The notes beneath the pieces were generated by a model. It had not been told where the DNA came from and ran no database searches. It saw only the letters and a program-made list of their open reading frames with translations. This document shows positions 9,262 through 47,628 of a stretch of DNA of 64,000 bases, one piece after another. The DNA lies in NCBI GenBank assembly GCA_022508805.1, contig JAFLUM010000009.1, forward strand, positions 1-64,000, written 5' to 3'. The translations under genes and the position numbers were made by a program. Origin of the DNA: Oscillospiraceae bacterium (GTDB taxonomy: Bacteria > Bacillota > Clostridia > Oscillospirales > Acutalibacteraceae). The number at the start of each line of letters is the position of its first letter. Positions within the stretch are counted from its first letter, which is position 1.

Positions 9262-9328
9262 AATTATCACCTCAAGTGAATTGTAACATATTTATAAGGC
9301 AAAAGAAAGTATAAAAAACCGAAGACAC

Positions 9329-9368: not shown

Positions 9369-9383
9369 TCTATGTATTGCTTT

Positions 9384-24649: not shown

Positions 24650-24754
24650 AAGTCGAGTTTTGACGAGAGTTGAGAAGTAGCAGGTTTATTTTTTTTAACA
24701 TCGAACCGAGCGAGCGCTTGATTTGATAAGCGTTATGTGTTAGGAGTGACAAAG

Positions 24755-25321: not shown

Positions 25322-25380
25322 TCAATTGAACAACTAATTACCAAATACTAAACACCAACTCGGTGAAAGGAGATAATAAA

Positions 25381-26628: not shown

Positions 26629-26642
26629 GGAGTGTATCGAAG

Positions 26643-27338: not shown

Positions 27339-27358
27339 GTGCAAAGGAGACCGTCACA

Positions 27359-29353: not shown

Positions 29354-29377
29354 TAATGAGAAATGGAGGAAGGGTTT

Positions 29378-32086
29378 ATGATAAAAACATTGGCATTGGC
29401 TAATGGTAATTATGTAAGTATGGCCATCGCTGAAGTTATCTCCGTTCCTTATTTTGAGTTATATGCAAAAGACTTAGATCGAGCAAATTACATGAATCAA
29501 GTTTTATTTACACAGTTAATTCAGTCTTTGCATAGAAAAACTGAGGGTGGAAATACTGCTTTCGAATTTTTGTTTCAAAGTGTGGCAGTAGATAACCAAA
29601 CATACAAAGCACAGGTTAAGATGTATGTCCTCATAAGAAGAATTGGTGACGCCAAAGATGACAACGAAAAGAAAGTGTCAGATTTAATAAACAGCATAAA
29701 AAACGATATGGAGGATAAGAACTTCACAGTATCTATTTTTGCTGATGATATAGCTTACAATGACTTTGAAGAATCATTATCAAAATGCGACTATTCAAGG
29801 AAGTTGTCTGTATCAAAAAATGAAAAAGCTATGGCAAACGCTTTGTCTGCCAACGGTCTGACATATTACAATGAGGTTATTGAGCCTTCGGAAAATATTA
29901 ATCCATCCACATTGATCAATGCACTTTCTCAATATCCCGACAGCGTTGTTTCATTGCAAATCCTTCCAACAAAATACACTTTGAATGAATTGCAGTTAGT
30001 AGAGCAAATACACAATTTTTATGAGCATTATGTAAGCGAGATAAGATTCCGTCAAGGCATCCATGTAGATGTTAACACTCAAATGGTGGCTGATGCTTAT
30101 AATTATTATTCTCAGTCTTCCAACGAACAATTATTTCTTTACAGTTTTGTTGTATATTCCGGATATAGCAGTGCAATCGATCTATCAAATAAGCTGATGG
30201 ACTCTCTTGAAGCAGAGGGAAAAGCAACCGGTAGTTCATTATGCGTTGTTGATTTTTCTGATTTTAATGTTGTTCCTTATCAAAATCTATTTGCGAATCC
30301 TTGGTTATTAAGTGATGTTTTAATTTATAAAGCAAGAGAGAAGAACTTTTGGCAAAGCAAAAATGCACCAACGGTTTTGCAACGCTTCAAGCATTTGATG
30401 ACAACGAGAGAGATTCGCGGACTATTTAAGTTTCCAATTGATGATAAACGTGTTATTGGATTAGAAAGCAATAAAATTCTTTCTAACAGAGAAAAACTAC
30501 ACAAAAGCATTATCTCTGATGGAAACTTCAAAGTGGGTATCATCCAAAATGCCAGCAAGAATTCAAGAGATGCAGATGCACATGCCGGTATACCGCTTAA
30601 TGATTTTACGAAACACGGTCTTATTGTTGGTATGCCCGGTTCAGGTAAAACGAATTTTTCATTAGGGCTACTTTTGCAATTCTGGAACGAATTCAATATA
30701 CCTTTTCTTGCAATTGAGCCTACTAAAAGCGAGTATCGTTCATTGATAGACGGTATTCCCGATTTACAAGTATTTACTCCAGGAAAAAACACAGTATCTC
30801 CTTACATAATAAATCCATTCCTCCCCCCCACCGGAGTTACTGTTGAAAGTTATGTGCCAAGTTTGATGTCGGCATTTCGGGCAGCCTTCTCTATGCCGGA
30901 TCCGTTGCCGGATATCTTTTTGGCTGCAATTAATGATTGTTATAACGAATATGGTTGGAAAAACGATAGTACTTCTGACGATCCTGCAGTACAGCGTTTC
31001 GGCCTGTATGAGTTTATTAAGGTTTTCAAAAAGAAAATTCAGCACATGGATTATAAAGGCGATGTAAAATCCAATATGGAAAGCGCCGGTGTTGTCCGCT
31101 TAGTTAGTCTTATTGAGCAGAACAGCAACATATACGATACGATTAACACGATTCCACTTGAAGATTTACTGAAAAAGCCAACTGTTATTGAGCTGAATGC
31201 GATCAACAACAAAGAGCAAAAATCTCTGATAATGGCACTGTTGTTGATTATGATTTGTGTTTATACAAAGAACAATGTTTCAGGGGATGGACAATTAAAG
31301 AATGTCCTGCTCATAGACGAAGCACATGTTCTTCTTGCCGGTGGCGGTGCCAAGGCGGATGGTAGTGCGGATTCTCAAGGTTCAACCGTAGAAGCCCTTG
31401 AAGATATGATCGCAGAAATTCGTTCATATGGTACAAGTATAATTATCGCTGATCAGTCCCCCACTAAAGTTGGTAGGAGCATTGTTGCAAATACCAATGT
31501 TAAAGTGATTTTCAAGCTGGTCGAAAAAGAAAACAAGGATGCAATCAGTACAGCAACAAATATGAATGAGGCTGATTATGAACTTCTTGGCCGCTTAGGC
31601 GTTGGAGAAGCTTTGCTCCATTACGGCAGAGTTTATACGCCCCTACATATAAAAACTTATAATGTCCAAGAAAAAGCAACACTTAGACCAGTAATTGAGG
31701 ATCGTGAAATAGCCTCATTAACAAAGTATTGGGACACTCATCAATCGTTGCTTGTTCCACACATCGAATGTGAGAGCTGTTTTTACTGTCACAATGATTG
31801 CGATTTTAAAATTCGTGCAAATGCTGACTTTATTGCAACCAGGTTGATCAATGAATATTTGTATGAATTGCAAGACAAATCTGCCTTTGTGAAATTTCTT
31901 GTGCGGATTGATAAACCAATCAATGATATATTGGCAGAGAATAATTCAATTACTTTTAGTAAAAGACTTGCTAATTGCATCAAGATTAAGTTTTTACGCA
32001 AGGCAATGCTTGTAAAGAATTATGGGATAACGAAAAATGAGTACAAAACCATTCTTAAACACCCAAATTTCTTGAAGCGCGACTGA
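29378..32086 (+). CDS. HerA/FtsK-like ATPase with C-terminal Cys cluster
   Basis: 902 residues; the ATG at 29378 fits GGAGGAAGGG. Residues 1-400 are a family-specific domain. Walker A GMPGSGKT is at about 418-425, Walker B VLLIDEAH at about 643-650, and the sensor-like IIIADQSPTKVGRSIVANTN further on. These belong to the HerA/DUF87 group of ring-shaped translocases. Near the C-terminus CESCFYCHNDC (about 798-808) could bind zinc. HerA proteins usually pair with NurA, Sir2 or DUF4297 nucleases, and none is present here. The ring may therefore pump protein or remodel complexes rather than resect DNA. It is too unlike VirB4/TraG and lacks conjugation neighbours. Confidence 0.85.
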   Translation: MIKTLALANGNYVSMAIAEVISVPYFELYAKDLDRANYMNQVLFTQLIQSLHRKTEGGNTAFEFLFQSVAVDNQTYKAQVKMYVLIRRIGDAKDDNEKKVSDLINSIKNDMEDKNFTVSIFADDIAYNDFEESLSKCDYSRKLSVSKNEKAMANALSANGLTYYNEVIEPSENINPSTLINALSQYPDSVVSLQILPTKYTLNELQLVEQIHNFYEHYVSEIRFRQGIHVDVNTQMVADAYNYYSQSSNEQLFLYSFVVYSGYSSAIDLSNKLMDSLEAEGKATGSSLCVVDFSDFNVVPYQNLFANPWLLSDVLIYKAREKNFWQSKNAPTVLQRFKHLMTTREIRGLFKFPIDDKRVIGLESNKILSNREKLHKSIISDGNFKVGIIQNASKNSRDADAHAGIPLNDFTKHGLIVGMPGSGKTNFSLGLLLQFWNEFNIPFLAIEPTKSEYRSLIDGIPDLQVFTPGKNTVSPYIINPFLPPTGVTVESYVPSLMSAFRAAFSMPDPLPDIFLAAINDCYNEYGWKNDSTSDDPAVQRFGLYEFIKVFKKKIQHMDYKGDVKSNMESAGVVRLVSLIEQNSNIYDTINTIPLEDLLKKPTVIELNAINNKEQKSLIMALLLIMICVYTKNNVSGDGQLKNVLLIDEAHVLLAGGGAKADGSADSQGSTVEALEDMIAEIRSYGTSIIIADQSPTKVGRSIVANTNVKVIFKLVEKENKDAISTATNMNEADYELLGRLGVGEALLHYGRVYTPLHIKTYNVQEKATLRPVIEDREIASLTKYWDTHQSLLVPHIECESCFYCHNDCDFKIRANADFIATRLINEYLYELQDKSAFVKFLVRIDKPINDILAENNSITFSKRLANCIKIKFLRKAMLVKNYGITKNEYKTILKHPNFLKRD

Positions 32087-32119
32087 TTCACCTATCCTTA
32101 TAAAAAGGAGGTTAATGGC

Positions 32120-34315
32120 ATGGCCGATGAATTTGATACTTCTGTAGACACTTCATCATTTGATGATACAGGTTCAGATGTCTCTGACACAAGTAGCTTT
32201 GATACATCAACTGATGTTGGCGAGATAATGAGTGACAACTCATTTGACGTTGCAGACACATTTGCTGAATCTGAATTATCAGATATGGAAACGATTGAAA
32301 CCACATCTGATATTGGGGACTTAATGGCAGATACAGACGCCGAATATACCGAGTCTCTTGACACAACTGAAATTGAAACAGATATAATTGAAGATGGATC
32401 AGACAATATTGAAAATCTTATGGACGATGCACCCAACGATGGATTTTCCGAAGTAAGTGATATTCCAAGTGATATTACATCAGAAACTGAGTTTGCGGCC
32501 GAATCAGATATTGTCGACCTTATGGATGAGGCGGCACTTGAAACTGCTGAAGAATCATTAGATATCACAGACGGCGAACCATCTGAATCATTAGATATAT
32601 CGGAACTAATGGACGAAACTGTTAATGATTCTCCCGATGAAACAATTGAAAATTTAGAAGCTGTTGATACTACAGAAAATATTGCCGATGAAACCATGGA
32701 TGACATCGAGAGTTTGATGGACAATAACAATTCGGAAGTTTCTGATACACCGGAAGAAACTGAAGAAATTGCGGCAGAAGTAGTTGAGAGTGGAACTGAT
32801 TTGTCTGATTTGATGAATGAAACAGATGAGCCATCCGAAATGCCCTCCGACATTTCAGTTGAAACTACAGAAGAAGTTTCTGATGCACTTGAAGGAAACG
32901 AAGAAATTACGACTGAAGTAACTGAAGATGGAACTGATTTATCTGCTCCAATGAATGAAACAGTTGGGCAACCGGAGCTATCTTCCGACATCCCTGCTGA
33001 GCCGTTAGAACAAGTTTCCGAAACAGCGGATATGTCTGAAGGCAACTTTGACGAAACAGTTGAAGATACAACAGATGGAACTATAATTGATGCATCCAAT
33101 AGTGAAACTGATGTCTCTGCTTATGATAACCTTATGGCTTATATGAATTCACATAACTATGGGCAACAAGACGTTGGCGAATATTCACAGGATCCCGAGT
33201 GGCAAGAACTTAACAACGCTTACCGAATTGAACAAGGAATGGAGCCTATAGATTATGGTGGAAATGACTGGACTGACACCCATGTTGAAGATTTCAAAGA
33301 CGAATTAGTCGCATTGGGTATTCCGGAAGAAAGCGCTGAGCTTGAAGCAATAATCGAAAACGAGCAGCAAGGTATTGATGACATAAAAAAGCCCACGCCA
33401 GTAGACGAACCGAACAATGAAGATTTATTGGATGGTGCAGAGGAAATCATTGATGCAGATTCCGCTGATATATCTAATGAAATTGAAGCAATAGCAGAAG
33501 CCGAAACTATAGAACCAGTCGAAGATTTGACAGAAACACCGAGAGTCTTCGACGATTTCGAAAACAGCGTGCTTGAAGGCAAACCGGACTTTTATGAAAC
33601 GGGCTCATTCTATGAGCAAGGAATCAATGAGTATGGTTATCAAGGAACCTGTGGCCCCACGTCGCAAGCTAATGCGCTCAACAAATTATTTGACACCAAT
33701 GAATTCACGGAAAACAAAGTTCTTAATGTTGCCGTAGATAATAATCTATGTAGCATGGACACATCTCCCGAAAACTGTGGCGGCACAACAACAGAACAGT
33801 TCATGGAACTGTACGATAAAATGAACGAGCAACTGGACGGAAAAATCGACACACAACTGTTTGAGTACGATAATGCATTAGATGTTAACGATGTGGCTGA
33901 TAAACTTGATGAAGGTTGTGTTTTGAATGTTGCTGTAGATGCCAATGCTTTATGGGATCAACCACGTGAATATGTTAACTCTATGGGCATACCGTGTGAT
34001 GATTTCTATTCAGATCACTGGATTACAGTTACTGGAGTTCAGCGGGATGAACTTGGCAATGTCCAAGGGTTTGACATTATCGATTCCGGAGGTGGAGTTG
34101 ATTATGTTAGTGCAGACAAATATCACGAAATGTGTTTTGGCACTGATGAACATCGAGTTATAGATCCAACCGCAATTGTGGTATCTAAAAAGGATGTTTC
34201 ACCGGTTGGAGAAATCCCTACTGCTGAAGGCACAAGTTCTGATATAAACGATTCCACTTCAAACAATAGTGAAAGTGGTTGGTTTCAAAGAATCTTTGGA
34301 AGGAGGAACAATTAG
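32120..34315 (+). CDS. Acidic repeat protein with C-terminal papain-like (C39-like) protease domain
   Basis: 731 residues; ATG after AAAAAGGAGG. Residues 1-340 are disordered and extremely rich in D, E, S and T. Embedded in them a motif [DN]-[ILV]-x-x-[LI]-M recurs eight times at about 32-residue spacing (D32, D64, N96, D130, D159, D195, D227 and a weaker one at D273), with a variant YDNLM at 335-339. Residues about 490-690 form a papain-like fold: C511 in YQGTCGPTSQANAL, H633 in SDHWITVTG and D655 in DIIDSGGG fit a Cys-His-Asp triad. There is no signal peptide. It may be a protease effector or client held by the repeats. Protease activity and target are unproven. Confidence 0.82.
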   Translation: MADEFDTSVDTSSFDDTGSDVSDTSSFDTSTDVGEIMSDNSFDVADTFAESELSDMETIETTSDIGDLMADTDAEYTESLDTTEIETDIIEDGSDNIENLMDDAPNDGFSEVSDIPSDITSETEFAAESDIVDLMDEAALETAEESLDITDGEPSESLDISELMDETVNDSPDETIENLEAVDTTENIADETMDDIESLMDNNNSEVSDTPEETEEIAAEVVESGTDLSDLMNETDEPSEMPSDISVETTEEVSDALEGNEEITTEVTEDGTDLSAPMNETVGQPELSSDIPAEPLEQVSETADMSEGNFDETVEDTTDGTIIDASNSETDVSAYDNLMAYMNSHNYGQQDVGEYSQDPEWQELNNAYRIEQGMEPIDYGGNDWTDTHVEDFKDELVALGIPEESAELEAIIENEQQGIDDIKKPTPVDEPNNEDLLDGAEEIIDADSADISNEIEAIAEAETIEPVEDLTETPRVFDDFENSVLEGKPDFYETGSFYEQGINEYGYQGTCGPTSQANALNKLFDTNEFTENKVLNVAVDNNLCSMDTSPENCGGTTTEQFMELYDKMNEQLDGKIDTQLFEYDNALDVNDVADKLDEGCVLNVAVDANALWDQPREYVNSMGIPCDDFYSDHWITVTGVQRDELGNVQGFDIIDSGGGVDYVSADKYHEMCFGTDEHRVIDPTAIVVSKKDVSPVGEIPTAEGTSSDINDSTSNNSESGWFQRIFGRRNN

Positions 34316-34317
34316 CG

Positions 34318-34791
34318 ATGTTAGACATTAAGAGTGTTGTTTCCAATTTAAACAGGAATGCACTTGGTGGTACAAAAATTCCACACGCTGTGTCAAATTC
34401 TGTATTAAGACAGGAAAACGAAAAAATCTATATTGCTGCTTTTGTTTACACCTATAATCGTGAAAATTTGCAGAGCAATAAGATGCCTCGTCCCACTCAA
34501 TGGTTATTGGCAGATATTGAATCCGGAGAAATTATTAAAGAATACGATTGCAGAAGCAAAGATTTTTCAGATGCCGAATTTGATACCCTATATGATTTAA
34601 ACGATCCTAATGTTAAGCGCCCTTCAAGGGAAGACTTCGTTGAAATCTATACGCTTTTCGATGATATTAGGAATGAAATCACAAAAAATGATTTACAAAT
34701 GGTCGATAAGTACCACGACTACTTGAATAGGATCCTTGAAATTACACCGAGCAATTATCAAAGATTCTACAAAGATCTCAGTAATCTATAA
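34318..34791 (+). CDS. Unknown small protein following the protease gene
   Basis: 157 residues; ATG at 34318 with AAGGAGGA upstream, whose ribosome site lies inside the preceding gene (only 2 nt between stop and start), so translation is coupled. A mixed alpha/beta first half (KIYIAAFVYTYNRENL, TQWLLADIESGEII) is followed by a helical half (DFVEIYTLFDDIRNEIT). No family recognised. Tight coupling to a protease gene would suit an inhibitor, chaperone or specificity factor, on position alone. Confidence 0.65.
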   Translation: MLDIKSVVSNLNRNALGGTKIPHAVSNSVLRQENEKIYIAAFVYTYNRENLQSNKMPRPTQWLLADIESGEIIKEYDCRSKDFSDAEFDTLYDLNDPNVKRPSREDFVEIYTLFDDIRNEITKNDLQMVDKYHDYLNRILEITPSNYQRFYKDLSNL

Positions 34792-34808
34792 GAAGGAGGT
34801 TTTCTGTT

Positions 34809-36557
34809 GTGACTGAAGAAGAATATCGTGCGGAACAAGCTGAAGCAGAACGATTAAGAAGACAGATTAATGATGTAATTAATCGAATCAACTACACGAA
34901 TCAGGAAAACGCAGAACTTGAAGCAGAATTAGAAGTTGCCATTGAAAATGTAGGTATTTTAATTGGTAACTGCGGTCAATTGGATAACGAAGTCTTTGAG
35001 GAAATGGGGTGGCTCTCCGGCGTTGTTGGGGAAGCCGATATAAGCACAAAAGAAGTATTTCAGGCACTAAACGAGCTTACTGTGCAATATTTCTCATTCA
35101 AAAGTATTTCTACTGCATCCAAAAATGTAACCCAGTACAATGATGAGTATTACACAAAATATTCCTATTACAATGAATTACGGCGAATTTCGTTAGGTTA
35201 TGTTATTGGTCTTGATTCAAACATTATCAATAACGAAACCATGCGGAAAAAGGTAGAAAAAGCTTATTTGCAGAACACAGAGTATTGGCTTGCATATTGT
35301 ATTGCCGCTGTAATGTTGTGGGCGAATAAAGAGAAAGAGGCCGCACAACGAGCAATGAGCAAAAGCCTTTCTATTAACTATTTTAATTCTTGTTTATTCT
35401 ATCTGCTGATCAATTTGAGATTCAATCGAATAGACGCTGCAAAGAAATGGTATGTTAATTACCTTGATAGAGCTGACATGAATAACTTGGGCGAAGAATG
35501 GCAGTATCTCCTGCAAGCCTACTTGTTTGGTGCATTTGGTGCGGATGAGGAATTCCAAGAAATTATCGCTAAATGTTTCCAAAGCATGCTTGCACAGGTA
35601 GAAGTTACAACTGTTGATTTTGCTAAGAAATTCACGCAAAAGGCTCTTGAATTTGCTGAACTCTATGTTCATAAAACGAATTATGAGTTTACTATTTTGG
35701 GACGCACTTGTGATGAATATCCGCAGATGAAAGATTTGTTATCCACTGCGGAGAAGAACATTGAAATTGCAAAGTATTATGATGGGTTGGCCGAAGCCGA
35801 AATCACAGAAACTATTGATTTGCCCCAAAGAATCGAAAATGTTCTTTATTCGTTGGTTAATGATTATGATGAAGAAGAACTAAAAGTGGTTCAGAAAATC
35901 AAATACAACGAGGCAATTATTAGCGCAAAAGGCGACGTTGCTACTGCCCAAGCAAATTACAATGCAATTTTTGAAGATCGCAATAAAAAGAAAAACCTCG
36001 GCGATTTGCTTTTATCATGGGCATTTGCAGATGACACGGCTCAAACAGATGTTTCAGTTAAGAGATTCTCTATTTCCTTTATGAAAGAAGCAATTGCAAA
36101 AGGCTTTGAGCAATTCGTTGAAAAATACCGTGCCAGAGAAAAAGAGAAGTATTCTTTCAATATTGATGAATGCATCTTGGAATGCAACGAGAATGATTAT
36201 TCTGAAGCAGAGAAAACTCTTGATAAGTATTATGATAAAAACAAGCTTAAAGATACTATCAAGGACAAGCAGGTGTTGATTTATTCAGGTTTATGTGGAC
36301 TTTCGCTACTTCTGCTGTTAATTCTGTTTGCGTACTTCTCACCGGTTATCCTTACCTTTGGAATACTTATAGGTCTTGCTGGCAGTTTTCTTCTTTGGCG
36401 CCGAATTGTTGATATGGGTAAAATACTCAAAGAAAAGAAACGCAAAGGCAAGTTGCTTTTGAAACAAGCTCTCGACGAATTGAAACAATGGAGAGTAGCT
36501 TACAAAGAAGCAGACGAAAAGCACACTGATATGCTAAAAGCAATTGATAGATTTTAA
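34809..36557 (+). CDS. Coiled-coil/helical protein with C-terminal TM hairpin, paralogue 1
   Basis: 582 residues; GTG start behind AGAAGGAGG. An N-terminal coiled coil (EEEYRAEQAEAERLRRQIND) leads to a helical domain with TEYWLAYCIAAVMLWANKEK and YLLINLRFNRIDAAKKWYVN. A second helical region (AQTDVSVKRFSISFMKEAIA) follows, then two TM helices at about 485-530 and a basic coiled-coil tail (GKILKEKKRKGKLLLKQALD). The same plan and motifs recur in the genes at 36576 and 40411, so three diverged copies arose by duplication. TPR-like architecture plus membrane anchor suggests a hetero-oligomeric membrane-bound scaffold. Family not known to me. Confidence 0.75.
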   Translation: MTEEEYRAEQAEAERLRRQINDVINRINYTNQENAELEAELEVAIENVGILIGNCGQLDNEVFEEMGWLSGVVGEADISTKEVFQALNELTVQYFSFKSISTASKNVTQYNDEYYTKYSYYNELRRISLGYVIGLDSNIINNETMRKKVEKAYLQNTEYWLAYCIAAVMLWANKEKEAAQRAMSKSLSINYFNSCLFYLLINLRFNRIDAAKKWYVNYLDRADMNNLGEEWQYLLQAYLFGAFGADEEFQEIIAKCFQSMLAQVEVTTVDFAKKFTQKALEFAELYVHKTNYEFTILGRTCDEYPQMKDLLSTAEKNIEIAKYYDGLAEAEITETIDLPQRIENVLYSLVNDYDEEELKVVQKIKYNEAIISAKGDVATAQANYNAIFEDRNKKKNLGDLLLSWAFADDTAQTDVSVKRFSISFMKEAIAKGFEQFVEKYRAREKEKYSFNIDECILECNENDYSEAEKTLDKYYDKNKLKDTIKDKQVLIYSGLCGLSLLLLLILFAYFSPVILTFGILIGLAGSFLLWRRIVDMGKILKEKKRKGKLLLKQALDELKQWRVAYKEADEKHTDMLKAIDRF

Positions 36558-36575
36558 AAACGGAGGTAGTAAGTT

Positions 36576-38177
36576 ATGTCTAATGCTTCACAAGCAATTA
36601 ATACTCTTGACCAAACTATTAACTCCTTTAAGTCAAGAGTTGATGTAAAGGTCAATGATGTTAACGCATCGACCGCAAGCATTCAAGCAACCACAAATAA
36701 GATTTACGAAAACATTGAAAGATTCAAAACCGATATGCTTCATGGCGAAGAAAAGCAAATCGCTCATGAGAATATTCTGAGAATCGATCAGATCATCAAA
36801 GAACAGTTCAGTAATCACATTGCTATCCGGCGTACAGTAATGGGAGTTGTTCGTGATTTTGACATCAATCTTGTTCGCAACAGCACTATTCAAGAATTGT
36901 CCGAAGAACTGTGGATTACAAGTTCTCGCTATTGGCTTTCCTACGCATTGATTGCAATTACCGCTTGGGTTAACAACTATCCCGATGTGGCGAAGAATGC
37001 GTTGGCCGAAAGCGGAAGAAAAGATGCGATTAAAACAACCCTCTTCTTCTGTTTGATGAACTTAAGATTCGGACGCATGGACGCGGCAAAAAAATGGTTC
37101 TACGAGTATTTTAAGACATTAGATCCGACCATGCTCCAACAGGAAACGGCCATTCTGTTACAATCCTTCTTGAATGGAGTTTTTGGAAAAGACAAAGAGT
37201 TAGAGCATGAAGTTATCGAGCTTATTGATGAATGGATCACCATCATCAATGACAACGAGGAAATCTCTAACGAATTACTTAACGGTTATGAAACTTACAT
37301 ATCCAATTTAAATGCACCTGTTCAGTTCAGTTATGAATCCATCCTAAAGTATTGCACAAACTCCGGACAATTGGAGAAGACTTACAAGGATGTATCCAAA
37401 TTCGAAATGCTTTTAGAGTTCGTTAAATCCCTTGATGTAGAAGCAGAACCTCAAGATGATGAGAATTATAAGAGTAGAATAGATGCTATCTTGATCAACC
37501 TTATTTCTAATTATGACGCCGAAGAACTTGAACTGAAGAAGCAACAAGAGTATTATCGCTGTATCGTGGAAAACAATGGCGTTGTTGAGCAAGCTGAGGC
37601 TCAGTATCAAGCTATGGAAGAATTGCAGAACACCTCTTTTAACATCGGTAAGCAAATGATTAAGTGGGCTATTTATGACGATAGCGATCAGACCGATGTG
37701 CAAGTAAGAAAGTTTGGCTTCCAAAACACAAAGTCTTGGTTTAAGAGTGCAGTTAATAATTTTGATGGAAAAGTTCAAGAGGCCTATCCCAATGAATACA
37801 ACCTGCATATTGATACCTGGGACGGAGTAAGTAACGGAAACGATCAAGCCGAGCAAATCCAAAGTCTAAAGAATCATTTTGACAACAACAAATTTCAGAA
37901 TATGTTTGTTAACACCCCCAATATTCTTGCAGCAATTCTATTTGTAGTTTCTGCCGGACTTGCTTTTGCAACGTTGTATTCACTAATTGTAACAGCACTG
38001 TCTGCTGGTTTCTTAGTATTCAGAGTTTTGCAAGCAATTAAAAAGTATCCTCTCCGCATCAAAGCCGCAACTGATAATTTGAATGCTGTTATGGGTGAAA
38101 TTGCTGAGTTCAAGCGCTATTACGATGAAAAACGTGCAAAGAAAGATGAACTTCTTAGCACTGTAGAGTTTCTTTAA
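36576..38177 (+). CDS. Coiled-coil/helical protein with C-terminal TM hairpin, paralogue 2
   Basis: 533 residues; ATG after ACGGAGG. It shares with paralogues 1 and 3 the central block (here SRYWLSYALIAITAWVNNYP ... CLMNLRFGRMDAAKKWFYEY). It also shares a later DQTDVQVRKFGFQNTKSWFK segment and two TM helices near the end (FVNTPNILAAILFVVSAGLA ..., LIVTALSAGFLVFRVLQAI). The C-terminal tail after the hairpin is helical and would lie on the same side as the N-terminus. It starts 18 nt after paralogue 1. Confidence 0.75.
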   Translation: MSNASQAINTLDQTINSFKSRVDVKVNDVNASTASIQATTNKIYENIERFKTDMLHGEEKQIAHENILRIDQIIKEQFSNHIAIRRTVMGVVRDFDINLVRNSTIQELSEELWITSSRYWLSYALIAITAWVNNYPDVAKNALAESGRKDAIKTTLFFCLMNLRFGRMDAAKKWFYEYFKTLDPTMLQQETAILLQSFLNGVFGKDKELEHEVIELIDEWITIINDNEEISNELLNGYETYISNLNAPVQFSYESILKYCTNSGQLEKTYKDVSKFEMLLEFVKSLDVEAEPQDDENYKSRIDAILINLISNYDAEELELKKQQEYYRCIVENNGVVEQAEAQYQAMEELQNTSFNIGKQMIKWAIYDDSDQTDVQVRKFGFQNTKSWFKSAVNNFDGKVQEAYPNEYNLHIDTWDGVSNGNDQAEQIQSLKNHFDNNKFQNMFVNTPNILAAILFVVSAGLAFATLYSLIVTALSAGFLVFRVLQAIKKYPLRIKAATDNLNAVMGEIAEFKRYYDEKRAKKDELLSTVEFL

Positions 38178-38208
38178 TCAATATTAATACGATAAAAGGA
38201 GAATTATC

Positions 38209-38394
38209 ATGAGTAACGAAATCAAAAACCAAAATCAAGATGTCGAATTTGAGCAGATGATGGAACAGCGCATCCGTGAAAACTTTGCAGCTCCTAACAA
38301 TGGCAGTGTAGAGATTTCCGATGAACGCTTGAAAGAAATGAGCAAAAAACTTCCCGAATGGAGTCTTGAACCTCCATATAGTTTCTTGAAATGA
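38209..38394 (+). CDS. Small unknown protein (61 aa)
   Basis: 61 residues; ATG after AAAAGGAG. The first half is polar and helical (NQDVEFEQMMEQRIRENFAA) and it ends in EPPYSFLK. Its stop overlaps the next gene's start by 4 nt (ATGA), which supports it being a real, coupled gene. No family recognised; it could be a small adaptor or inhibitor. Confidence 0.65.
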   Translation: MSNEIKNQNQDVEFEQMMEQRIRENFAAPNNGSVEISDERLKEMSKKLPEWSLEPPYSFLK

Positions 38395-38894
38395 GTATAG
38401 TAACAGAACGAACAGAAACAAAAGCTCCAACTACATATCAAGAATGGCTCGACTGTTTCGAAACGATGAAACATAACCCTGTTAGCGGTAATGGAGTCTT
38501 TGATGCTGTTGCGTCAGGCTCCTTTACCGGAACAGAGATTACAATTGGTGCGATGCAAAATCAAGTGGTAGAAACGGTTAACGCAATTCTGGACAAGAGT
38601 GTAAAGCGGTTTATCAAAGAGCTGAATGAAAGTATCTCTTTTAATGATTTGTCGCAGATTGATGTTTTGTTTCGTCATCTAAAACGAGATATAGAAAAGT
38701 CATTGTTTTTTGAAAATCTGTTCTTTCTTCCAAAGACATTCCGAACGGAATTGTCGCAATCAGTTAAAACACAAATGCAAAAGTTTTGGAATGATACTGT
38801 GAAGTTTTTATACGAGCAGTCTTTGGAATTTTCCAACTCCGAACTTGAAGATGTGTTGTTTTTGATCAACCGCATTCATCTTTTCAAATCGTAG
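38391..38894 (+). CDS. Unknown helical protein (167 aa)
   Basis: 167 residues, starting inside the preceding stop (ATGA). Mostly helical, with FNDLSQIDVLFRHLKRDIEK and KTQMQKFWNDTVKFLYEQSL, and no TM, Cys cluster or enzyme motif. It is followed after 8 nt by the AAA+ gene, so it may be a substrate adaptor of that ATPase. Function unknown. Confidence 0.65.
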   Translation: MSIVTERTETKAPTTYQEWLDCFETMKHNPVSGNGVFDAVASGSFTGTEITIGAMQNQVVETVNAILDKSVKRFIKELNESISFNDLSQIDVLFRHLKRDIEKSLFFENLFFLPKTFRTELSQSVKTQMQKFWNDTVKFLYEQSLEFSNSELEDVLFLINRIHLFKS

Positions 38895-38902
38895 GTGATA
38901 CA

Positions 38903-40414
38903 ATGGGCAATTACGTTTCAACAAAAGCTGAAATTAAAAATTACATATGCGCAAGAACACCACTGATTGTGGTTGATTCTTCAGAGCGTGAACGAGTCGA
39001 AAGAATGCTGAAGGAAATCTCTAAAGAATTGGATGTCAGCATTAACTATTATACTGATGAAAAGCAGGTATGTTCTTTTAATGGCAACGCAAGACAAGAT
39101 GTGGACGGCGATCCGTTGCATTATATTGCTACTGCCTTCAAGAAGCACCGCAACTCGACTTTCGCCATAGGAGATATTAAGCGTATAGGTGAGGATAACG
39201 TTTTCAGCCGAGAAGTTCTCAATCTTTTGTATTTGGCGAAAGAAACAAATTGCACATTGATACTTATTACCGCAGATAGCATTTGGTCTCGTTTGTCCCA
39301 GTTTGGAATGCTGACTACGTTAGAGTATCCCGATATGGATGAACGAATTAGTCAAGTAGAGACCTTCATAGGACAGTTTAACGGAAGATATCCAATCGAG
39401 TGGGATCCCCAAGACATACGAATGGCAGCAACACTTTTGAGAGGTTTCTCGGAGATCCAGATCGATAACATCTTGTCCACAACATTGGTAAGCAAACAAA
39501 AACTGAGCAAAGAGCATTTATTCGAATTAACCGAACAAAAAAGCAAACTATATTCTGCAGTTCCAAGCATACAAGCTGTTAATGTTAACAGAAACCTGGA
39601 AGTATCAGGACTTGATAATTTAAAAGCTTGGCTGAATGAGAAAAAATCTATTTTCTTTGCTTCCGATGATGCGTTGAAAGACCGTGATCTTACAACTCCT
39701 AAAGGCATTTTACTTGCCGGCGTTCCAGGTTGTGGTAAATCTTTATCTGCCAAGATGGTAGCAAAAGAATGGGAATTGCCACTATTTAGGTTTGATCTTG
39801 GAACCATTTATGACAAGTGGGTCGGCGAGAGTGAAAAGAAGATGAAGGAAGCACTACAGTTTATTGATAATGTTTCTCCATGTGTCGTTTGGGTTGATGA
39901 GATTGAAAAAGCGTTATCGGTTTCTGACACAGGTAATGATACAGGAAAACGTGTTCTTGGTCAGTTTTTATTTTGGCTTCAAGAATCTAAGAGTCGTGTG
40001 TTCTTAGTGGCTACAGCAAACGACATTTCCTTACTGCCCTATGAGTTGTTTAGAAAAGGAAGGTTCTCAGAAATATTTTTTATTGATTTGCCTAATGCTG
40101 CAGAACGCAAAGCAATAATAGAACAGTATTCAAGAAAGGCTCTGCACATTAAGTTTGATGAATCCGAAACATCAGAACTTGTGCAAGCTTCAAAAGGATT
40201 CTCGTATTCTGATATCGAGTATGTTATTAAGGATACCGCACAATTGGCATTATTAAACGGACAAACCATAATTAGCAAAGATTTGCTTTTGGAAAAGTTC
40301 AAGGAGATCATTCCAATTTCGCAAACTAATCCCGATAAAGTAAAACAAATCAGAAAATGGGGATCTGAAAGAGCTGTAGCAGCATCAAGTAAATCAGGAG
40401 GTATCGAAGAATGA
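38903..40414 (+). CDS. Ycf46-like AAA+ ATPase
   Basis: 503 residues. The N-terminal 230 residues (YICARTPLIVVDSSERERVE ...) resemble the domain preceding the ATPase in Ycf46-type proteins. The AAA core has GVPGCGKS (Walker A, about 273-280), VVWVDEIEKAL (Walker B, about 329-339), a sensor LVATANDISLLP and an arginine-finger region RKGRFSEIFFIDLPNAAER. These are classic AAA (FtsH/Cdc48-type) features, so a hexameric unfoldase or remodeller is expected. No protease domain is fused, but a cysteine protease lies in the same operon. The start follows GTAGGTGAT. Its last codons overlap the third paralogue by 4 nt. Confidence 0.87.
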   Translation: MGNYVSTKAEIKNYICARTPLIVVDSSERERVERMLKEISKELDVSINYYTDEKQVCSFNGNARQDVDGDPLHYIATAFKKHRNSTFAIGDIKRIGEDNVFSREVLNLLYLAKETNCTLILITADSIWSRLSQFGMLTTLEYPDMDERISQVETFIGQFNGRYPIEWDPQDIRMAATLLRGFSEIQIDNILSTTLVSKQKLSKEHLFELTEQKSKLYSAVPSIQAVNVNRNLEVSGLDNLKAWLNEKKSIFFASDDALKDRDLTTPKGILLAGVPGCGKSLSAKMVAKEWELPLFRFDLGTIYDKWVGESEKKMKEALQFIDNVSPCVVWVDEIEKALSVSDTGNDTGKRVLGQFLFWLQESKSRVFLVATANDISLLPYELFRKGRFSEIFFIDLPNAAERKAIIEQYSRKALHIKFDESETSELVQASKGFSYSDIEYVIKDTAQLALLNGQTIISKDLLLEKFKEIIPISQTNPDKVKQIRKWGSERAVAASSKSGGIEE

Positions 40415-42126
40415 GTAATTACGCATTACAGAGCCAACTTAACCAGCTTGAAGCAGAGTTAAGAAGGGCTCAAGAAATAAATCGTCAACTACGCGGTGAA
40501 TTGACCACTGTTGCAAACGGCGTGAGTCGTGCTCACAAAGATCTTGAAGATTATAATAGTACAATTCGGAATACGTTGGACAATTGCAACGGTGCGATGC
40601 ATTCATCCCATCAGCGCGTAATTGATGCAATAGAATTGCAAGGCGATATCGAGCGTTTGTATGTCAAATTTAAAAACGTCGAACTTGCTAACAAAAAGAT
40701 TAGATCTTGCAACAATAAAAAATACTATGATTTTGCTAACTATCGTACAGTGAGAAAAATCGTTCAAGGTATTATGGATAATCTCGACGTACAGATGGTT
40801 AGTGATCAAACCATTACAAAATCAGTCGAAGTTCAGCATTTACAAACGCCGGATTATTGGCTGACTTGTGTGCTTATTAGTGTAATGGCATGGAGAAATA
40901 ATGATAAAGAACTTGCCGATCGCGCGATGGCACGCGCTATCAAGCTCGACAAGAAAAATAGTGCTATTTTTTATATGCTCTTCAATTTAAGAATGGGTAG
41001 AGATGGCGCAGCATTAAAATGGTTCTACACATACCAAGAGTGTGAGCTAAAAGGTAGCGATCAACGGACATTCTTGATGTTGTTCTCGCTTGTTAGCAAA
41101 ACATTGGCAGATAATGTTGACGAGAACACTAAGAATGAGATTTTTGCTTTTATCAAAAAAGTAATTGATATGAATATGGCCGCCTCCGGTTATAGTGAGG
41201 AAGACATCGTTGCTCAGATAAGAGCATATTTCAATAGAATGCAACCTTCGGATCAGCTCCAGTATTCGATGTTGCGAAAGTATTGTTCCGAATTTGACCA
41301 ACTGACCTCTTTAATGATGCAGGCCAAGAACAATATCAACATACTTGAGTTTATTCTAAAAACGGCTAATGTACCTGCAGAGGAAAAGAACTCCTTCCTC
41401 AAAAATTACATTGACGAACTGATTGCCACACCGAACCAAGTCGAAAAAGATGTATATGACGAAATCGCATATAACGAGTTAGTTATTAAACTTGAAGGTG
41501 AAGTTGAAACCGCAAAAGAACAGTTTGAGACTGCCCAAGCTAAAAAAGCGAATGATCTGAATCTTATTGCAGAGATGATAGATTGGATTTATGAACGAGA
41601 TGCCCAAGATGTTAACGGTCAGATCAGACTCAGTATGTTTACTCTTACGAAACTGCTCCAGGAAAAAGCCGTAACAGAACATGTAGAGAATTACAGAGCA
41701 AGAAGAAAGGCCAATTATCCGATCACAATTGGCGAGTATGGTACAACGGCAAACTTTAAGCGCGAAGATGAGGAATACAAGAAAATCACCGATTACTTTA
41801 CTGAAAAGAAGAATGTAGCCGTTGCAGCAATCAAAGATTGGCCTGCCTTTATCGGATTTGGTATTGGTGCCGCCGCACTTGTTGGTTGTTTCTTCGCTGG
41901 ATTCTGGTTATTGGTTTTAACGCTGGGTGGAGTAGGTTATGGCCTTTTCACCTTGCTATCCAACAAAGGTCAGAGAAAGCAACTCGAACAAAAGTGTGCA
42001 GAAAGCATTAAATCCACAAGTGATATAATGCAAAAAATGTTTGTTGAATTCAAGCAATATCAGAAAGAATTGGATGAGTATGATTCTTATTATGAAAGAA
42101 TCTGTGATGAATTAAGTAAAATTTAA
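40411..42126 (+). CDS. Coiled-coil/helical protein with C-terminal TM hairpin, paralogue 3
   Basis: 571 residues, last gene of the operon, start overlapping the AAA+ stop (ATGA). The N-terminal coiled coil (LNQLEAELRRAQEINRQLRG) is strong. The shared central block is present (PDYWLTCVLISVMAWRNNDK ... MLFNLRMGRDGAALKWFYTY), as are the ENYRARRKANYPI segment and a TM hairpin (WPAFIGFGIGAAALVGCFFA ..., FWLLVLTLGGVGYGLFTLL). A helical tail of about 50 residues closes the protein. Coupling with the AAA+ gene suggests these two products meet directly. Confidence 0.75.
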   Translation: MSNYALQSQLNQLEAELRRAQEINRQLRGELTTVANGVSRAHKDLEDYNSTIRNTLDNCNGAMHSSHQRVIDAIELQGDIERLYVKFKNVELANKKIRSCNNKKYYDFANYRTVRKIVQGIMDNLDVQMVSDQTITKSVEVQHLQTPDYWLTCVLISVMAWRNNDKELADRAMARAIKLDKKNSAIFYMLFNLRMGRDGAALKWFYTYQECELKGSDQRTFLMLFSLVSKTLADNVDENTKNEIFAFIKKVIDMNMAASGYSEEDIVAQIRAYFNRMQPSDQLQYSMLRKYCSEFDQLTSLMMQAKNNINILEFILKTANVPAEEKNSFLKNYIDELIATPNQVEKDVYDEIAYNELVIKLEGEVETAKEQFETAQAKKANDLNLIAEMIDWIYERDAQDVNGQIRLSMFTLTKLLQEKAVTEHVENYRARRKANYPITIGEYGTTANFKREDEEYKKITDYFTEKKNVAVAAIKDWPAFIGFGIGAAALVGCFFAGFWLLVLTLGGVGYGLFTLLSNKGQRKQLEQKCAESIKSTSDIMQKMFVEFKQYQKELDEYDSYYERICDELSKI

Positions 42127-42584: not shown

Positions 42585-44381
42585 TTATGCGAGAGATTTT
42601 AGATACTGCTCGACATTCAAGTATTGAACGCCGTCAGACTCAACTGGTTCGCCGCGATAGATGACATACCGGCCGGTGATCCTGCCAAAGCGATGTTCTG
42701 TTTCGGCGCACTTTTCGGCATTGATAAGATGTCTGTACTGATTTGCCACGACTTCTTTGCTGTGCTTGATTTCGTAAATCTCGCAAGTGAGTGTGGCGGG
42801 ATCGTAAATCACCATATCAAATTCTCCGACTGCGAATTGCAGCTGAAAAACCTGCTTTTTAGGATTGGCAAGTTTGGTTTCCAGCAGGACAATATCTTCC
42901 ATCATTCTGCCTTTGATCTCGCTTAAAATGCGCTCGAGAATGCGGTTGCGTTGCACAACGGAAAGAGCATTGAATTTTTCATCCAGCAACAGACTACTGA
43001 CGAGCGCATCTGCCTGAGCATAGCGCAGTCCCGGTTGGCTGATCACCGTAATTTTTTCGTGCGTGTTGACATCTGGTAAGTGAAACAGATCCACTTCCAT
43101 GATCAAATCAAGCAGGGTCAGATATTCCTTGATTTGATAGGCGTGCGTATCGTCCACTTCAACCGTTTGTTCTTCCTTGTTGAGTATGTCTAGCATGGTT
43201 CTGACAAGTTCAGTCACAGTATCCTCATCGATATTTTGCGTAATATCAATAGGCTCACTGCGGTCGTGGAGAAGGTTGCGCGCGGAAATGGCTAAATCAT
43301 TAGATGCAAATGTTTTTGTGAGAACCTCTTTCGTAAAGCGATGGTTAATATCCTCTACAACACGGTTAATAGCGCTGGTGAGTTCACCTTTTTCGTACAG
43401 CTCATATAAATGACGAAAATGACCACCCTCTTGATAATACTTGAGCGAGTGCTGAATGTTTCGGGCAATTGCGCTGTCGATATATTCGCCGGCGCTCTTA
43501 TTGGTGGCAAAAGAGGATTTCTCGTTATAATTGACGCCGCCCATACTCATCGTACCACCGTACCGAATGTATTCGTCGATACCTTCGATGCCGAGAATGG
43601 TTTCAAATTCCCGATAGGGGATAATTGTGGTATGCAGCAGGATACAGCGATCGTAAAGTTGTTCATATTCGGTAAAAATAAAACCGAGCGAGTCTGTACC
43701 TGACAGAACGATTTTCATACCGCTGCTGGCATAAATATCAGAAAACAGCGCGGCGCCTTCGATAAAGTCTTCCATAAGGGTGACTTCATCAATAAACACA
43801 TACTTGTAGCCTTGCTTCTCAAGGTACTTCAAGTCCGCATTAATCTCCGACAGAGTATCTCTGGTTTTGATTTGGATAAACGCCGCCGCATTCAACTGCT
43901 CCGGCGTCATATCGAGTATCGCTTGACGGATCAATGTGGTTTTGCCGGTTCGACGCAGGCCATAGAGAATAAATACTTTATCTTGCTGCACGCCGAATAC
44001 GAAATCGTGTAAAGTGGAATAGCACTCACGGCGTTTATACTTTTTCACAGGAGTTGCCCAGCTTTTCAGCTGAGAACCGATCCGCACATAGGTGGAAAAC
44101 GGATGCATATCCTTTTCTTTTTTCACGCGTTCCGATGCAGGCACAAGTTTCTTAAGCTTTTTCAGTTCTTCCTCTAATTCTTTTCTTTTTTCAATTTGAG
44201 AGCGCAACTCTTCTACGTGATCAAAATCCACATAGGTTTCGGTGCGCTTTTTGTTTTGGGTAATACGATGATAGAAGTACTCTTTCCCTTTTACTTTTTT
44301 TGCGGAAACGCTGCCGGGTGGCAACAATGCAATTTCACGCTCCAGTTCATTGATCCGCTCCATTATATCAAATTCAGTCAT
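42585..44381 (-). CDS. AAA-ATPase with C-terminal PD-(D/E)XK nuclease-like domain
   Basis: 598 residues; the ATG at 44381 is chosen because GCGGAGG is seven bases upstream. The N-terminal 100 residues are coiled coil. Walker A GLRRTGKTT (about 141-149) and Walker B YVFIDEVTLM follow, with VLSGTDSLGF as sensor; this is the DUF4143/archaeal-ATPase type common in gut bacteria. The C-terminal GEFDMVIYD ... CEIYEIKHSK fits the D ... ExK core of a PD-(D/E)XK fold. Such proteins are widespread, poorly understood and often linked to mobile DNA or toxin-like functions. It is transcribed against the cargo operon from its own consensus promoter and may be an independent passenger on the element. Confidence 0.8.
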   Translation of the reverse strand: MTEFDIMERINELEREIALLPPGSVSAKKVKGKEYFYHRITQNKKRTETYVDFDHVEELRSQIEKRKELEEELKKLKKLVPASERVKKEKDMHPFSTYVRIGSQLKSWATPVKKYKRRECYSTLHDFVFGVQQDKVFILYGLRRTGKTTLIRQAILDMTPEQLNAAAFIQIKTRDTLSEINADLKYLEKQGYKYVFIDEVTLMEDFIEGAALFSDIYASSGMKIVLSGTDSLGFIFTEYEQLYDRCILLHTTIIPYREFETILGIEGIDEYIRYGGTMSMGGVNYNEKSSFATNKSAGEYIDSAIARNIQHSLKYYQEGGHFRHLYELYEKGELTSAINRVVEDINHRFTKEVLTKTFASNDLAISARNLLHDRSEPIDITQNIDEDTVTELVRTMLDILNKEEQTVEVDDTHAYQIKEYLTLLDLIMEVDLFHLPDVNTHEKITVISQPGLRYAQADALVSSLLLDEKFNALSVVQRNRILERILSEIKGRMMEDIVLLETKLANPKKQVFQLQFAVGEFDMVIYDPATLTCEIYEIKHSKEVVANQYRHLINAEKCAETEHRFGRITGRYVIYRGEPVESDGVQYLNVEQYLKSLA

Positions 44382-44400
44382 ACGAATACCTCCGCTATTG

Positions 44401-44448
44401 GTTATACCCAATTATACCCTTATTATTCAAAAATGTCAAGGGTATAAC
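44401..44448 (-). promoter_or_regulatory. Promoter and repeated operator of the AAA/nuclease gene
   Basis: On the minus strand TTGACA (44439-44434), 17 bases, TATAAT (44416-44411), both perfect. Three copies of one 9-mer surround it: GTTATACCC (44401-44409), ATTATACCC (44411-44419) and the inverted GGGTATAAC (44440-44448). They overlap the -10, flank the -35 and lie just downstream, so a repressor bound there would shut the gene off. The repressor is not identifiable in the window. Confidence 0.8.
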
Positions 44449-45462: not shown

Positions 45463-47628
45463 ATGGTAGAAACTTTTGATATTGCGGGTTACTGCCGTAT
45501 CTCGGTCGATGACGAACTGGATCGGGATAACACCTCCATCGAAAACCAAAAGTCTATCATCAAAGAGTATGTCGAGCGTACATTCCCCGGATCGAGACTC
45601 ACCTTCTATGAGGATCGTGACCGAAGCGGTTATACCTTCGAGCAACGTGAAGGATATCAAAAAATGCGCCCCTATCTTATGGGGCGCAAATACGATATCC
45701 TTGTGGTCAAGGATTTCTCACGATTTTCCCGTCGAAACAGCCGCGGACTTGTGGAGCTGGAAGACCTGCGGGACGCCGGTGTGAGGATCATATCCATCGG
45801 GGACAGCATCGACTATCCTACTTACGATGATTGGACAGCGATTCAATTCCGCTTTCTTGTCAACGAAATGCCGGTTACCGATGCGTCTAAGAAAGTAAAA
45901 TCGGTAATCAAGCGACGGCAGGAGGACGGCAAGTGGATCTGCGCCGTTCCCTACGGATATGTGATCACGAATTATAAAACGATGACCTACGAGGTCGAAC
46001 CAACCGAAGCACTCGTTGTCAAAAAGGTGTTCGAACTGTACAGCGAGGGCTGGGGCTATAAAAAGATTGCGAACTATCTCACCGAGCAGCACTATCCTAC
46101 GCCGCGGATGAACGAGCGAGCACGAAAGGAAGCAAGGGGCGAGGAATGCAAACTGAAAGCCCGTCCCGAGTGGAGCATTGTAACTGTGCAAGGGATGCTC
46201 ACCAATGATTTCTATATTGGTACCCTACGCCAGGGAAAGTACACTCGTAAAAAAATCAACGGTGACGATATCAAGAAAGATGAAAGTGAGCATATCGTAT
46301 TTGAAAACTACCACGAGGCAATCATCGACTATCGCACCTTCGCTACGGTACAGGAGCAACTGAAAAAGCGCACCACCAACCATTACCGAGGCGTGAAAAA
46401 ATACGATAATGTTTATTCGGGAATTATGGTGTGCGGCGACTGCGGCAGCCCCATGTTCCCTATGAGCCGAAAGGATTTGAAGGACGCCTATCGGTGCGGC
46501 GCCTATCACCAAAGGGGACTGAAGGGCTGCACAAGCCACCATATCCGCGTGGATGTTCTTGACAATCTGCTGCGGAACTATCTGATAGAGGTCAGAGAAA
46601 CTTCATCGGAGATGATCGCCAAGCTGAAAAAATCCATCGAAGGCGAGAATGACGCTGTCAAGAACAATCAGGAAACCATTGATATTCTTGAAAAACAGCT
46701 TGAGGACGCGCACGAGGAAAAGAAAATGTACATACGCCAATGTACACGAGAGATCATGCGCCGTCCCGAGCGAGAGGAAACGATTCAGGAAACCTATGAC
46801 GAGCTGATCGCAGAGTGCGAGGCAAGGATTGACGGTATCAACAATCAGATCCTGCTGACCCACGATAAACGCAACACCATCATCAAGGTGAACCGCATCA
46901 CAAAGGTCGCACTGGATATATTCGAGGAAATTATCAGCAAATCCGGATTTCAAAAGGGAGATCTTGAACTGATCGTAGAGAAAATATATGTCTACGAAGA
47001 TCATATCGAAATCAAGCTGAAAGCGGACATCACAAGTATTTTGGAAAGTGGGACAATTCCCGAAACGGAGGAAGCCGCAAATTTTAGTGATGGCATCATA
47101 GATAGCTTAAAGACCGTAGTAGTCCAAACGAGCACAAATCGGCTGGACAAGGTCTATGATGTCAGTGTTATCAGTAACGGCGACCCGTTGGAGATTTACA
47201 CGGCGTCGGACGGAGAGGTTATATTCAAAAAATATTCGCCTATAGGCGAGCTTTCGGAATTTGCAAGTCAATACACCGATGTGCTGTACCGAGCGACAAG
47301 CTTACCGGTTATCATAACCGACCGCGATCACGTTATCGCGGTGTCGGGTATGCCGAAAAAGGATGCTATGGACAAACGCATCTCCGCGGCATTGGAGGAA
47401 CTGATTTCCGAACGCGGTAATTATGTTGCTTCACCTGATGCGAAGGCGTTGTACCCGATGGCGGAAAGCGACCGCGAGGCGGGCATTGCATTCCCCATAA
47501 TCGGCGGTGGAGACGTATCGGGAGCAGTCGTTCTGATGCTGGGTCAAAGCGGCTCAATGCCCACACAGACGGAGATAAAGCTTGTATCAGTCGCGGCATC
47601 ATTTTTGGGTAAACAGACCGAAGAATAA
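45463..47628 (+). CDS. Large serine recombinase, C-terminally fused in frame to SpoVT
   Basis: 721 residues as read now. Residues 1-150 form the resolvase catalytic domain, with the nucleophilic serine in YCRISVDDEL and the arginines of KDFSRFSRRNSRG. The recombinase domain (PYGYVITNYKT ... WSIVTVQGMLTN) follows, then a zinc ribbon (CGDCGSPMF ... YRCGAYHQRGLKGC) and a long coiled coil (about 385-480). From codon 573 (base 47179) the protein is SpoVT: GDPLEIYTASDGEVIFKKYS and onward. In the excised circle the same frame would instead end with 29 codons GDPLQITLTKED ... ERIGIGK, giving a 601-residue enzyme. Integration thus swaps the enzyme's tail for the SpoVT GAF-like domain. Activity of the fused form is unknown. 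Confidence 0.93.
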   Translation: MVETFDIAGYCRISVDDELDRDNTSIENQKSIIKEYVERTFPGSRLTFYEDRDRSGYTFEQREGYQKMRPYLMGRKYDILVVKDFSRFSRRNSRGLVELEDLRDAGVRIISIGDSIDYPTYDDWTAIQFRFLVNEMPVTDASKKVKSVIKRRQEDGKWICAVPYGYVITNYKTMTYEVEPTEALVVKKVFELYSEGWGYKKIANYLTEQHYPTPRMNERARKEARGEECKLKARPEWSIVTVQGMLTNDFYIGTLRQGKYTRKKINGDDIKKDESEHIVFENYHEAIIDYRTFATVQEQLKKRTTNHYRGVKKYDNVYSGIMVCGDCGSPMFPMSRKDLKDAYRCGAYHQRGLKGCTSHHIRVDVLDNLLRNYLIEVRETSSEMIAKLKKSIEGENDAVKNNQETIDILEKQLEDAHEEKKMYIRQCTREIMRRPEREETIQETYDELIAECEARIDGINNQILLTHDKRNTIIKVNRITKVALDIFEEIISKSGFQKGDLELIVEKIYVYEDHIEIKLKADITSILESGTIPETEEAANFSDGIIDSLKTVVVQTSTNRLDKVYDVSVISNGDPLEIYTASDGEVIFKKYSPIGELSEFASQYTDVLYRATSLPVIITDRDHVIAVSGMPKKDAMDKRISAALEELISERGNYVASPDAKALYPMAESDREAGIAFPIIGGGDVSGAVVLMLGQSGSMPTQTEIKLVSVAASFLGKQTEE
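47160..47189 (+). other. attR: right attachment site of the spoVT element
   Basis: Element-side arm TGTCAGTGTTATCAGTAACG (47160-47179), then the core GGCGACCCGTT (47179-47189), then spoVT coding sequence. The arm is the inverted repeat (one mismatch in 20) of the arm at attL. Fused, the two arms give a near-perfect palindromic attP around a 6-bp centre GCGACC. Confidence 0.92.
47179..47628 (+). pseudogene. spoVT: spoVT, 3' fragment
   Basis: 149 codons plus stop, carrying the rest of the SpoVT N-domain (GDPLEIYTASDGEVIFKKYS) and the GAF-like C-domain (PVIITDRDHVIAVSGMPKKD ... SGAVVLML). It has no start of its own and is translated, if at all, only as the tail of the recombinase. It is undamaged, so precise excision would restore a full gene. 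Confidence 0.93.

Follow-up and report, generated by a model that had tools for sequence, protein, structure and literature searches.

The window, a 64,000-nucleotide stretch of contig JAFLUM010000009.1 from an Oscillospiraceae bacterium of the gut (Clostridia), contains three diverged genes, all on the plus strand and all located where an initial annotation, made from the sequence, had placed them: A (34809-36557, with a GTG start, 582 amino acids), B (36576-38177, 533 amino acids) and C (40411-42126, 571 amino acids). Judged by their sequences, their products are true paralogs, and they belong to no named family in Pfam, NCBIfam, PADLOC or PHROGs. The genes lie in an operon that also encodes a AAA+ ATPase and an SPFH protein, and we give roughly even credence to a reading in which A, B and C form a membrane-anchored, hetero-oligomeric scaffold that would be remodeled by the AAA+ protein and tied to the SPFH module.

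Blastp comparisons aligned A and B with 25% identity over ~516 amino acids (176 bits, E 9e-53), with E values of 2e-40 for A/C and 1e-34 for B/C, and profile-profile alignments with hhalign, built on family alignments of 13-14 rows, gave E values of 5e-47 (A/B), 1.9e-43 (A/C) and 3.5e-35 (B/C). Smith-Waterman scores for the same pairs were 503, 427 and 356 (z of 56, 32 and 28), against maxima of 97-106 in 300 windowed shuffles preserving local composition; none of the other operon proteins scored above 55 against the paralogs. The strong profile similarity and the shuffle control together thus leave no pair without significant similarity. The recurrent motifs previously noticed in all three copies are real, with 18 residues invariant in 40 of 40 A, B and C sequences, including Y119, W120, L121, W131, N162, R167, A171 and W174 (B numbering), which can be summarized as the signature YWL, W and N..R....R...A..W. 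Mean p-distances of 0.28 for B, 0.37 for A and 0.41 for C mark B as the copy with the strongest conservation and under the tightest constraint, and C as the most divergent one.

The common plan proposed for the three products, a coiled coil followed by a helical block and a C-terminal transmembrane (TM) hairpin, is borne out by modeling of B and by the hydropathy of all copies scanned. The AlphaFold2 model of B (40-row alignment; predicted local distance difference test score 82, predicted template modeling score 0.62) contains a single helix at residues 2-93, a helical-repeat block at ~97-403, a beta hairpin at 408-419 followed by helices, a hydrophobic helical hairpin at ~447-487 and a long C-terminal helix reaching residue 532; A likewise reads as coiled coil, helical repeats, TM hairpin and coiled coil. 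All the proteins scanned, whether A, B, C or single-copy relatives, have one or two strong hydrophobic segments at the hairpin position. Fold searches of the PDB with two AlphaFold models of B returned nothing at E <= 0.001, with only vague TPR-like matches (PilF, MamA, PEX5), and a search of BFVD with B likewise gave no match. A PDB profile search with the 40-row alignment produced mainly coiled-coil matches (keratin) on the N-terminal helix, which we rejected as compositional; similarly, a Pfam match to EspC (T7SS/ESX) in the N-terminal coiled coil of one single-copy relative (L053, 9602-11272; E 5.7e-6, passing the cut-off) was set aside as probably a coiled-coil match.

A scan of GTDB genomes retrieved 13 loci besides the window that have this arrangement, complete or partial (L007-L019, hereafter class III), all from Clostridia and with C proteins 47-82% identical to that of the window. 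As described in the initial annotation, C is separated from A and B by two small genes, g10 (38209-38394) and g11 (38391-38894), and by the AAA+ gene (38903-40414). The order A-B-g10-g11-AAA-C is kept in 13 of the 13 loci with a complete A-to-C segment (the window and L008-L019) although the flanks differ, which supports a joint function as a scaffold with its own ATPase. Locus L008 has an extra open reading frame (ORF) between the AAA+ gene and C (8449-9795), resembling an IS110-type transposase by eye. In a maximum-likelihood tree of 54 sequences, A, B and C are each monophyletic with an ultrafast bootstrap of 100, B groups with the single-copy forms (99/97), and A and B of L009 are sisters of A and B of the window. 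The same sub-branching (L015 with L019, and L011 with L013) is seen within the three fully supported clades, and the A, B and C distance matrices correlate at 0.96-0.97. This congruence argues, from the tree, that the triplication is older than the spread of class III loci; the exact root of the tree is unsure because of the long branches between groups. Together, monophyly, kept order and congruent branching favor the ancient duplication and later specialization that had been proposed.

The operon comprises 13 co-directional, low-GC genes (24737-42126, plus strand) in the order TetR, SPFH/zinc ribbon, four-TM protein, zinc-ribbon helical protein, HerA-like ATPase, acidic-repeat/C39-like protein, small gene, A, B, g10, g11, AAA+ and C. 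At its head is a TetR-type regulator (24737-25321; Pfam TetR_N, E 2.4e-9); L011 and L013 have partial TetR ORFs in the corresponding position. The second gene, g2 (25378-26628), encodes an SPFH domain (Band_7_1, PF13421, E 3.1e-34) with two C-terminal zinc ribbons (DZR, E 8.9e-15; Zn_Ribbon_1) of the YdjI type, and is found upstream in most of the loci L007-L019 with a flank long enough. From its hydropathy, g3 (26640-27338) encodes a membrane protein with four hydrophobic segments and a helical tail, conserved in L009-L013, L015, L016 and L019, whereas g4 (27359-29353, 664 amino acids) encodes a conserved, long helical protein, mostly without a TM segment, preceded by an N-terminal CxxC...CxxC zinc-ribbon-like motif. 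SPFH, TM and zinc-ribbon genes are upstream in class III wherever the flank reaches, the sole exception being L016, in which no SPFH gene was found. Downstream of B, g10 encodes 61 amino acids ending in KKLPxWSLEPPYSFLK (LPxWxLEPPxxLVRR in relatives) and adjoins B in all 13 class III loci with the segment, while g11 encodes a helical protein of 167 amino acids between the paralog and the AAA+ gene. The AAA+ ATPase (PF00004, E 1.1e-28) has a C-terminal catalytic AAA domain with Walker A (GVPGCGKS), Walker B and Arg finger, an N-terminal domain with no Walker A, and no detected protease domain. The P-loop, Walker B and Arg finger are present in 20 of 20 homologs, and the sensor 1 ATAN in 19.

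These components can be assembled into a working model. The paralogs A, B and C would be subunits of one cytoplasmic-facing scaffold, joined through their coiled coils and anchored in the cell membrane via the C-terminal hydrophobic hairpins. The two-domain AAA+ ATPase, with g11 as a putative adaptor, would remodel or disassemble this scaffold, on which g10 might dock its conserved LPxWxLEPP tail, and the products of g2 (SPFH/zinc ribbon), g3 (TM) and g4 (zinc ribbon) would link it to a membrane domain; the TetR regulator would control the operon. The result would be an ATP-remodeled membrane coat answering envelope damage, working like PspA-YdjGHI or ESCRT-III/Vps4 and not homologous to them. 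We favor this model because the nearest analogies of context point to it: in Bacillus subtilis, the ESCRT-III homolog PspA is brought to the membrane by YdjI, an SPFH protein, together with YdjG/H, which are membrane proteins (PMC8581546), and bacterial PspA/Snf7 relatives are paired with AAA+ proteins, PspA sometimes with a two-AAA protein having an inactive N-terminal copy, in what has been read as ATP-dependent membrane remodeling (PMC11237479). Also in favor of the model, no PspA over the cut-off was found in G000 or in seven of the eight other carrier genomes (it is present in one of the nine carriers, and 9 of 14 known genomes matched as a control). A hetero-oligomeric membrane scaffold is plausible from the co-inheritance, coiled coils, TM hairpin and dedicated AAA+ protein; a single-chain model is unable to show a ring.

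Several points weigh against this model. We found no homology of A, B or C to PspA, Snf7, YdjG or YdjH, and the PDB offered B no fold match at the threshold used. The Band-7/AAA context is suggestive and not proof, and co-inheritance in a linked operon would by itself yield correlated distance matrices. Last, the absence of PspA, seen in a survey of carrier genomes plus known controls, may be common in Clostridia.

Protein searches of plasmids, phages and whole genomes also retrieved single-copy relatives, those on plasmids and phages being 22-24% identical to B (E 1e-27 to 1e-42), and the loci fall in three classes of gene sets. Class I contains the paralog, g10, g11 (E 1e-4 to 1e-15), the AAA+ gene and a fifth gene of ~160 amino acids, and is carried by Comamonas, Komagataeibacter, Fusobacterium, the satellite phage Javan368 (Streptococcus), an IMG/VR contig and several Clostridia genomes. 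The fifth gene comes first in the loci from Comamonas, Komagataeibacter, G485 and G961 and last elsewhere. Class II, from two genomes of one genus (L053/L054), contains genes for SPFH, a TM protein (the g3 counterpart), a short zinc-ribbon protein of 267 amino acids at the position of g4, the paralog and g10, and no full-length AAA+ homolog was found genome-wide in these two genomes. Class III equals class I plus class II minus the fifth gene, for which no match was found in class III, with the paralog in three copies. An additional locus, L051, has a paralog, a zinc-ribbon g10 and several zinc-ribbon genes, with no AAA+ gene nearby. The gene g10 adjoins the paralog in the two class II loci and in almost every class I locus, and only the paralog and g10 are common to all classes; because of this gene content, the tail motif LPxWxLEPPxxLVRR more likely binds the paralog than the AAA+ protein. 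Class III and the other loci are mostly from metagenome-assembled genomes (L015 is from a cultured carrier, Pseudoflavonifractor phocaeensis An569), whole-genome sampling (295-399 per rank) was centered on Clostridia and their phylum, and the named collections are biased. Additionally, L031 (G485), a 5.9-kb contig close to the Comamonas form, is possibly a contaminant, and the 2.1-Mb Fusobacterium 'plasmid' record is probably a chromosome. Neither a scan of IMG/VR with B nor the E. coli genomes yielded any relative.

The main rival explanation, supported by the location of class I on plasmids and a satellite phage and held by us as a tentative possibility, is an undescribed mobile immune system directed against phages or other mobile elements. 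The AAA+ protein and scaffold would detect events at the membrane or in phage assembly and stop the infection, with the toxin-like cassette of class III, described below, as the effector. Class I occurs on two plasmid lineages, near one end of Javan368, and beside serine recombinases in the IMG/VR contig, a putative provirus; the end of a satellite phage is the usual position for cargo. Distribution is patchy, at ~1-2% of the Clostridia genomes sampled. CedD and the defense HerA/mad8 models are the nearest to the cassette ATPase, the best NCBIfam/PADLOC models for the AAA domain are IteA/IetA, and one single-copy relative matches the defense dynamin-like LeoBC over its C-terminal half (E 1.1e-6). 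This last match, however, lies in the coiled-coil/TM region and may be compositional, the E value for C is 0.011, and PADLOC-DB 2.0 gave no convincing defense family for A, B, C or their single-copy relatives. Moreover, the modules belong to no PADLOC system and no defense genes were seen adjoining them, SPFH plus TetR is more typical of stress operons, and IetAS needs a subtilase, which is absent from the window operon.

Between g4 and A, the window carries a cassette (29363-34791, plus strand) formed by a HerA/VirB4-like ATPase (29363-32086; PF01935, E 1e-5; CedD, E 1.5e-17; PADLOC mad8, E 1.3e-17), a polymorphic-toxin-like protein with an acidic-repeat N-terminus and a swappable C-terminal domain (32120-34315), and a small partner gene for a putative immunity protein (34279-34791). 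The cassette has the same place, between the zinc-ribbon gene and A, in L018; L014 has the HerA-like ATPase and toxin genes 5' of A, and L008 and L017 at least the toxin part. The N-terminus of the toxin-like protein is common to L008, L014 and L018, whereas the C-termini are of three kinds: C39-like in the window and L017 (under the Pfam cut-off), a PF15644 glutamine deamidase in L014 and L018 (E 6.5e-11 and 1.5e-10, above the curated cut-off), and HELWH metallopeptidase-like in L008 (under the cut-offs). The small gene of the window is 58% identical to that of L017 only, which has the same C-terminal domain; other small genes occur where the toxin domain differs, and those of L014 and L018 are alike by eye. 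Alike N-termini, exchangeable C-termini and a covarying small gene fit the pattern of a putative polymorphic toxin with its immunity gene.

The HerA/VirB4-like ATPase, swappable toxin termini and small partner genes within one operon could also suggest toxin export or contact-dependent delivery, with A, B, C and the SPFH protein building a membrane complex through which the ATPase drives the toxin. Yet the cassette is missing from 8 of the 13 loci (L009-L013, L015, L016 and L019, with less than ~75 bases from the zinc-ribbon gene to A), even from L009 with its sister copies of A and B, and from classes I and II. We therefore consider it an optional passenger, cargo rather than core; export was rejected as the core function and is very unlikely as an explanation of the operon.

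SPFH-AAA+ partnerships such as HflKC-FtsH are known, and the operon could instead encode a general chaperone or quality-control complex for membrane proteins, with no coat function. In G843, a diverged homolog of the class I fifth gene (L071, 7835-8452) has as neighbors genes for triple-AAA (CbbX/SpoVK-like), Hsp70-like, DnaJ-like and TM repeat proteins; this neighborhood may be another AAA+ system built with that small protein, and its company of chaperone-like genes would suit quality control. Nevertheless, the AAA+ protein of the window, with no detected protease domain, comes with an adaptor and a scaffold of its own, and the broad phylogenetic conservation expected of a housekeeping function is not seen, so we judge this explanation unlikely.

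Around the operon, GC content is ~0.43-0.48, against a low-GC stretch at 24-42 kb that suggests acquisition. An empty-site comparison with two genomes of the same genus defined no insertion, since the probes from both flanks either had no match or matched at only 67-70% over ~420-570 bases. The operon is followed by a minus-strand ATPase gene (42585-44411) and a large serine recombinase (45463-47628); among class III loci, downstream genes vary, except that L007 and L008 are nearly identical to each other and L011 resembles L013. Elsewhere in the window, inspection by eye of a minus-strand gene (3553-6006) shows a pair of TIR-like stretches at the N-terminus along with numerous TPR-like repeats, and a similar-looking gene is found in L030 (16451-18763).

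The initial annotation did not extend to the SPFH-AAA+ operon as a whole, to the mobile forms with a single copy or to the optional toxin cassette. What these delineate looks like an undescribed mobile membrane-maintenance or defense machine: a family unnamed in Pfam, NCBIfam, PADLOC, PHROGs and the PDB that recurs, partly on mobile elements, in three gene-set classes and at least three phyla. In these classes, a core pair of scaffold and g10 is combined with one of two halves, AAA+ or SPFH, or with both of them, a simple logic that opens the roles to direct tests. A membrane coat, if true, would add another, unrelated way in which bacteria remodel membranes with ATP, while a defense function, if true, would mean a new mobile immune system. 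More speculatively, and as a tentative possibility, the single-copy module might be a mobile system of a new kind, for immunity or membrane surveillance, that spans Firmicutes, Fusobacteria and Proteobacteria, and the window its composite descendant, which would have merged with an SPFH module, triplicated the scaffold subunit and gained swappable toxin effectors.

Comparison with known systems places the operon near several of them, and our literature search on it turned up only Psp papers. Cyanobacterial plasmids encode AAA family ATPases of the Ycf46 type (cyanobacteria/plastids) that align over the full length of the window AAA+ protein with ~30% identity; one adjoins a DUF2997 gene, but those plasmids have no match to B and their ATPases have other partners. 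IetA of the anti-phage system IetAS is the best PADLOC match of the AAA domain (E 4e-35), although its score of 98 bits contrasts with an NCBIfam cut-off of 510 and the window operon has no S8 subtilase. The constant N-terminus, exchangeable toxin domain and matched small downstream gene are those of polymorphic toxin cassettes (PF15644 papain-fold toxins), whereas here the cassette is optional, accompanied by a HerA-like ATPase and inside an SPFH/AAA+ operon. Membership in Psp or ESCRT fails, as no PspA, TPM, Snf7 or MIT domain was found. With respect to PspA-YdjGHI, no window operon protein matches PspA/IM30 (PF04012), g3 has no TPM (YdjH) match, and there is no YdjG-type domain: YdjG has two zinc ribbons, an NTF2-like domain and a TM segment, while g4 has one zinc-ribbon-like motif and mostly no TM segment. 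The window operon further differs in its three copies of a membrane-anchored helical-repeat protein (A, B and C) and in its additional AAA+ protein. Conversely, g2 matches the SPFH/Band_7_1 domain and C-terminal zinc ribbon of YdjI, and each of the two operons is membrane-associated and encodes a helical coiled-coil protein together with one TM partner and one zinc-ribbon partner. From ESCRT-III/Vps4 the operon differs in lacking Snf7 or MIT Pfam matches at E <= 1 and in the TM hairpin of A, B and C. It resembles the Vps4 (Cdv) side in its classical AAA+ protein with intact catalytic motifs (CdvC, E 3.8e-26; CDC48, E 3.6e-27; both far below the cut-offs), and it shares with ESCRT-III/Vps4 and with the PspA plus two-AAA pairs (PMC11237479) a helical, oligomer-prone membrane protein adjoining a dedicated AAA+ ATPase, an ATPase N-terminal domain without a P-loop, and a small protein whose tail carries a short motif with proline.

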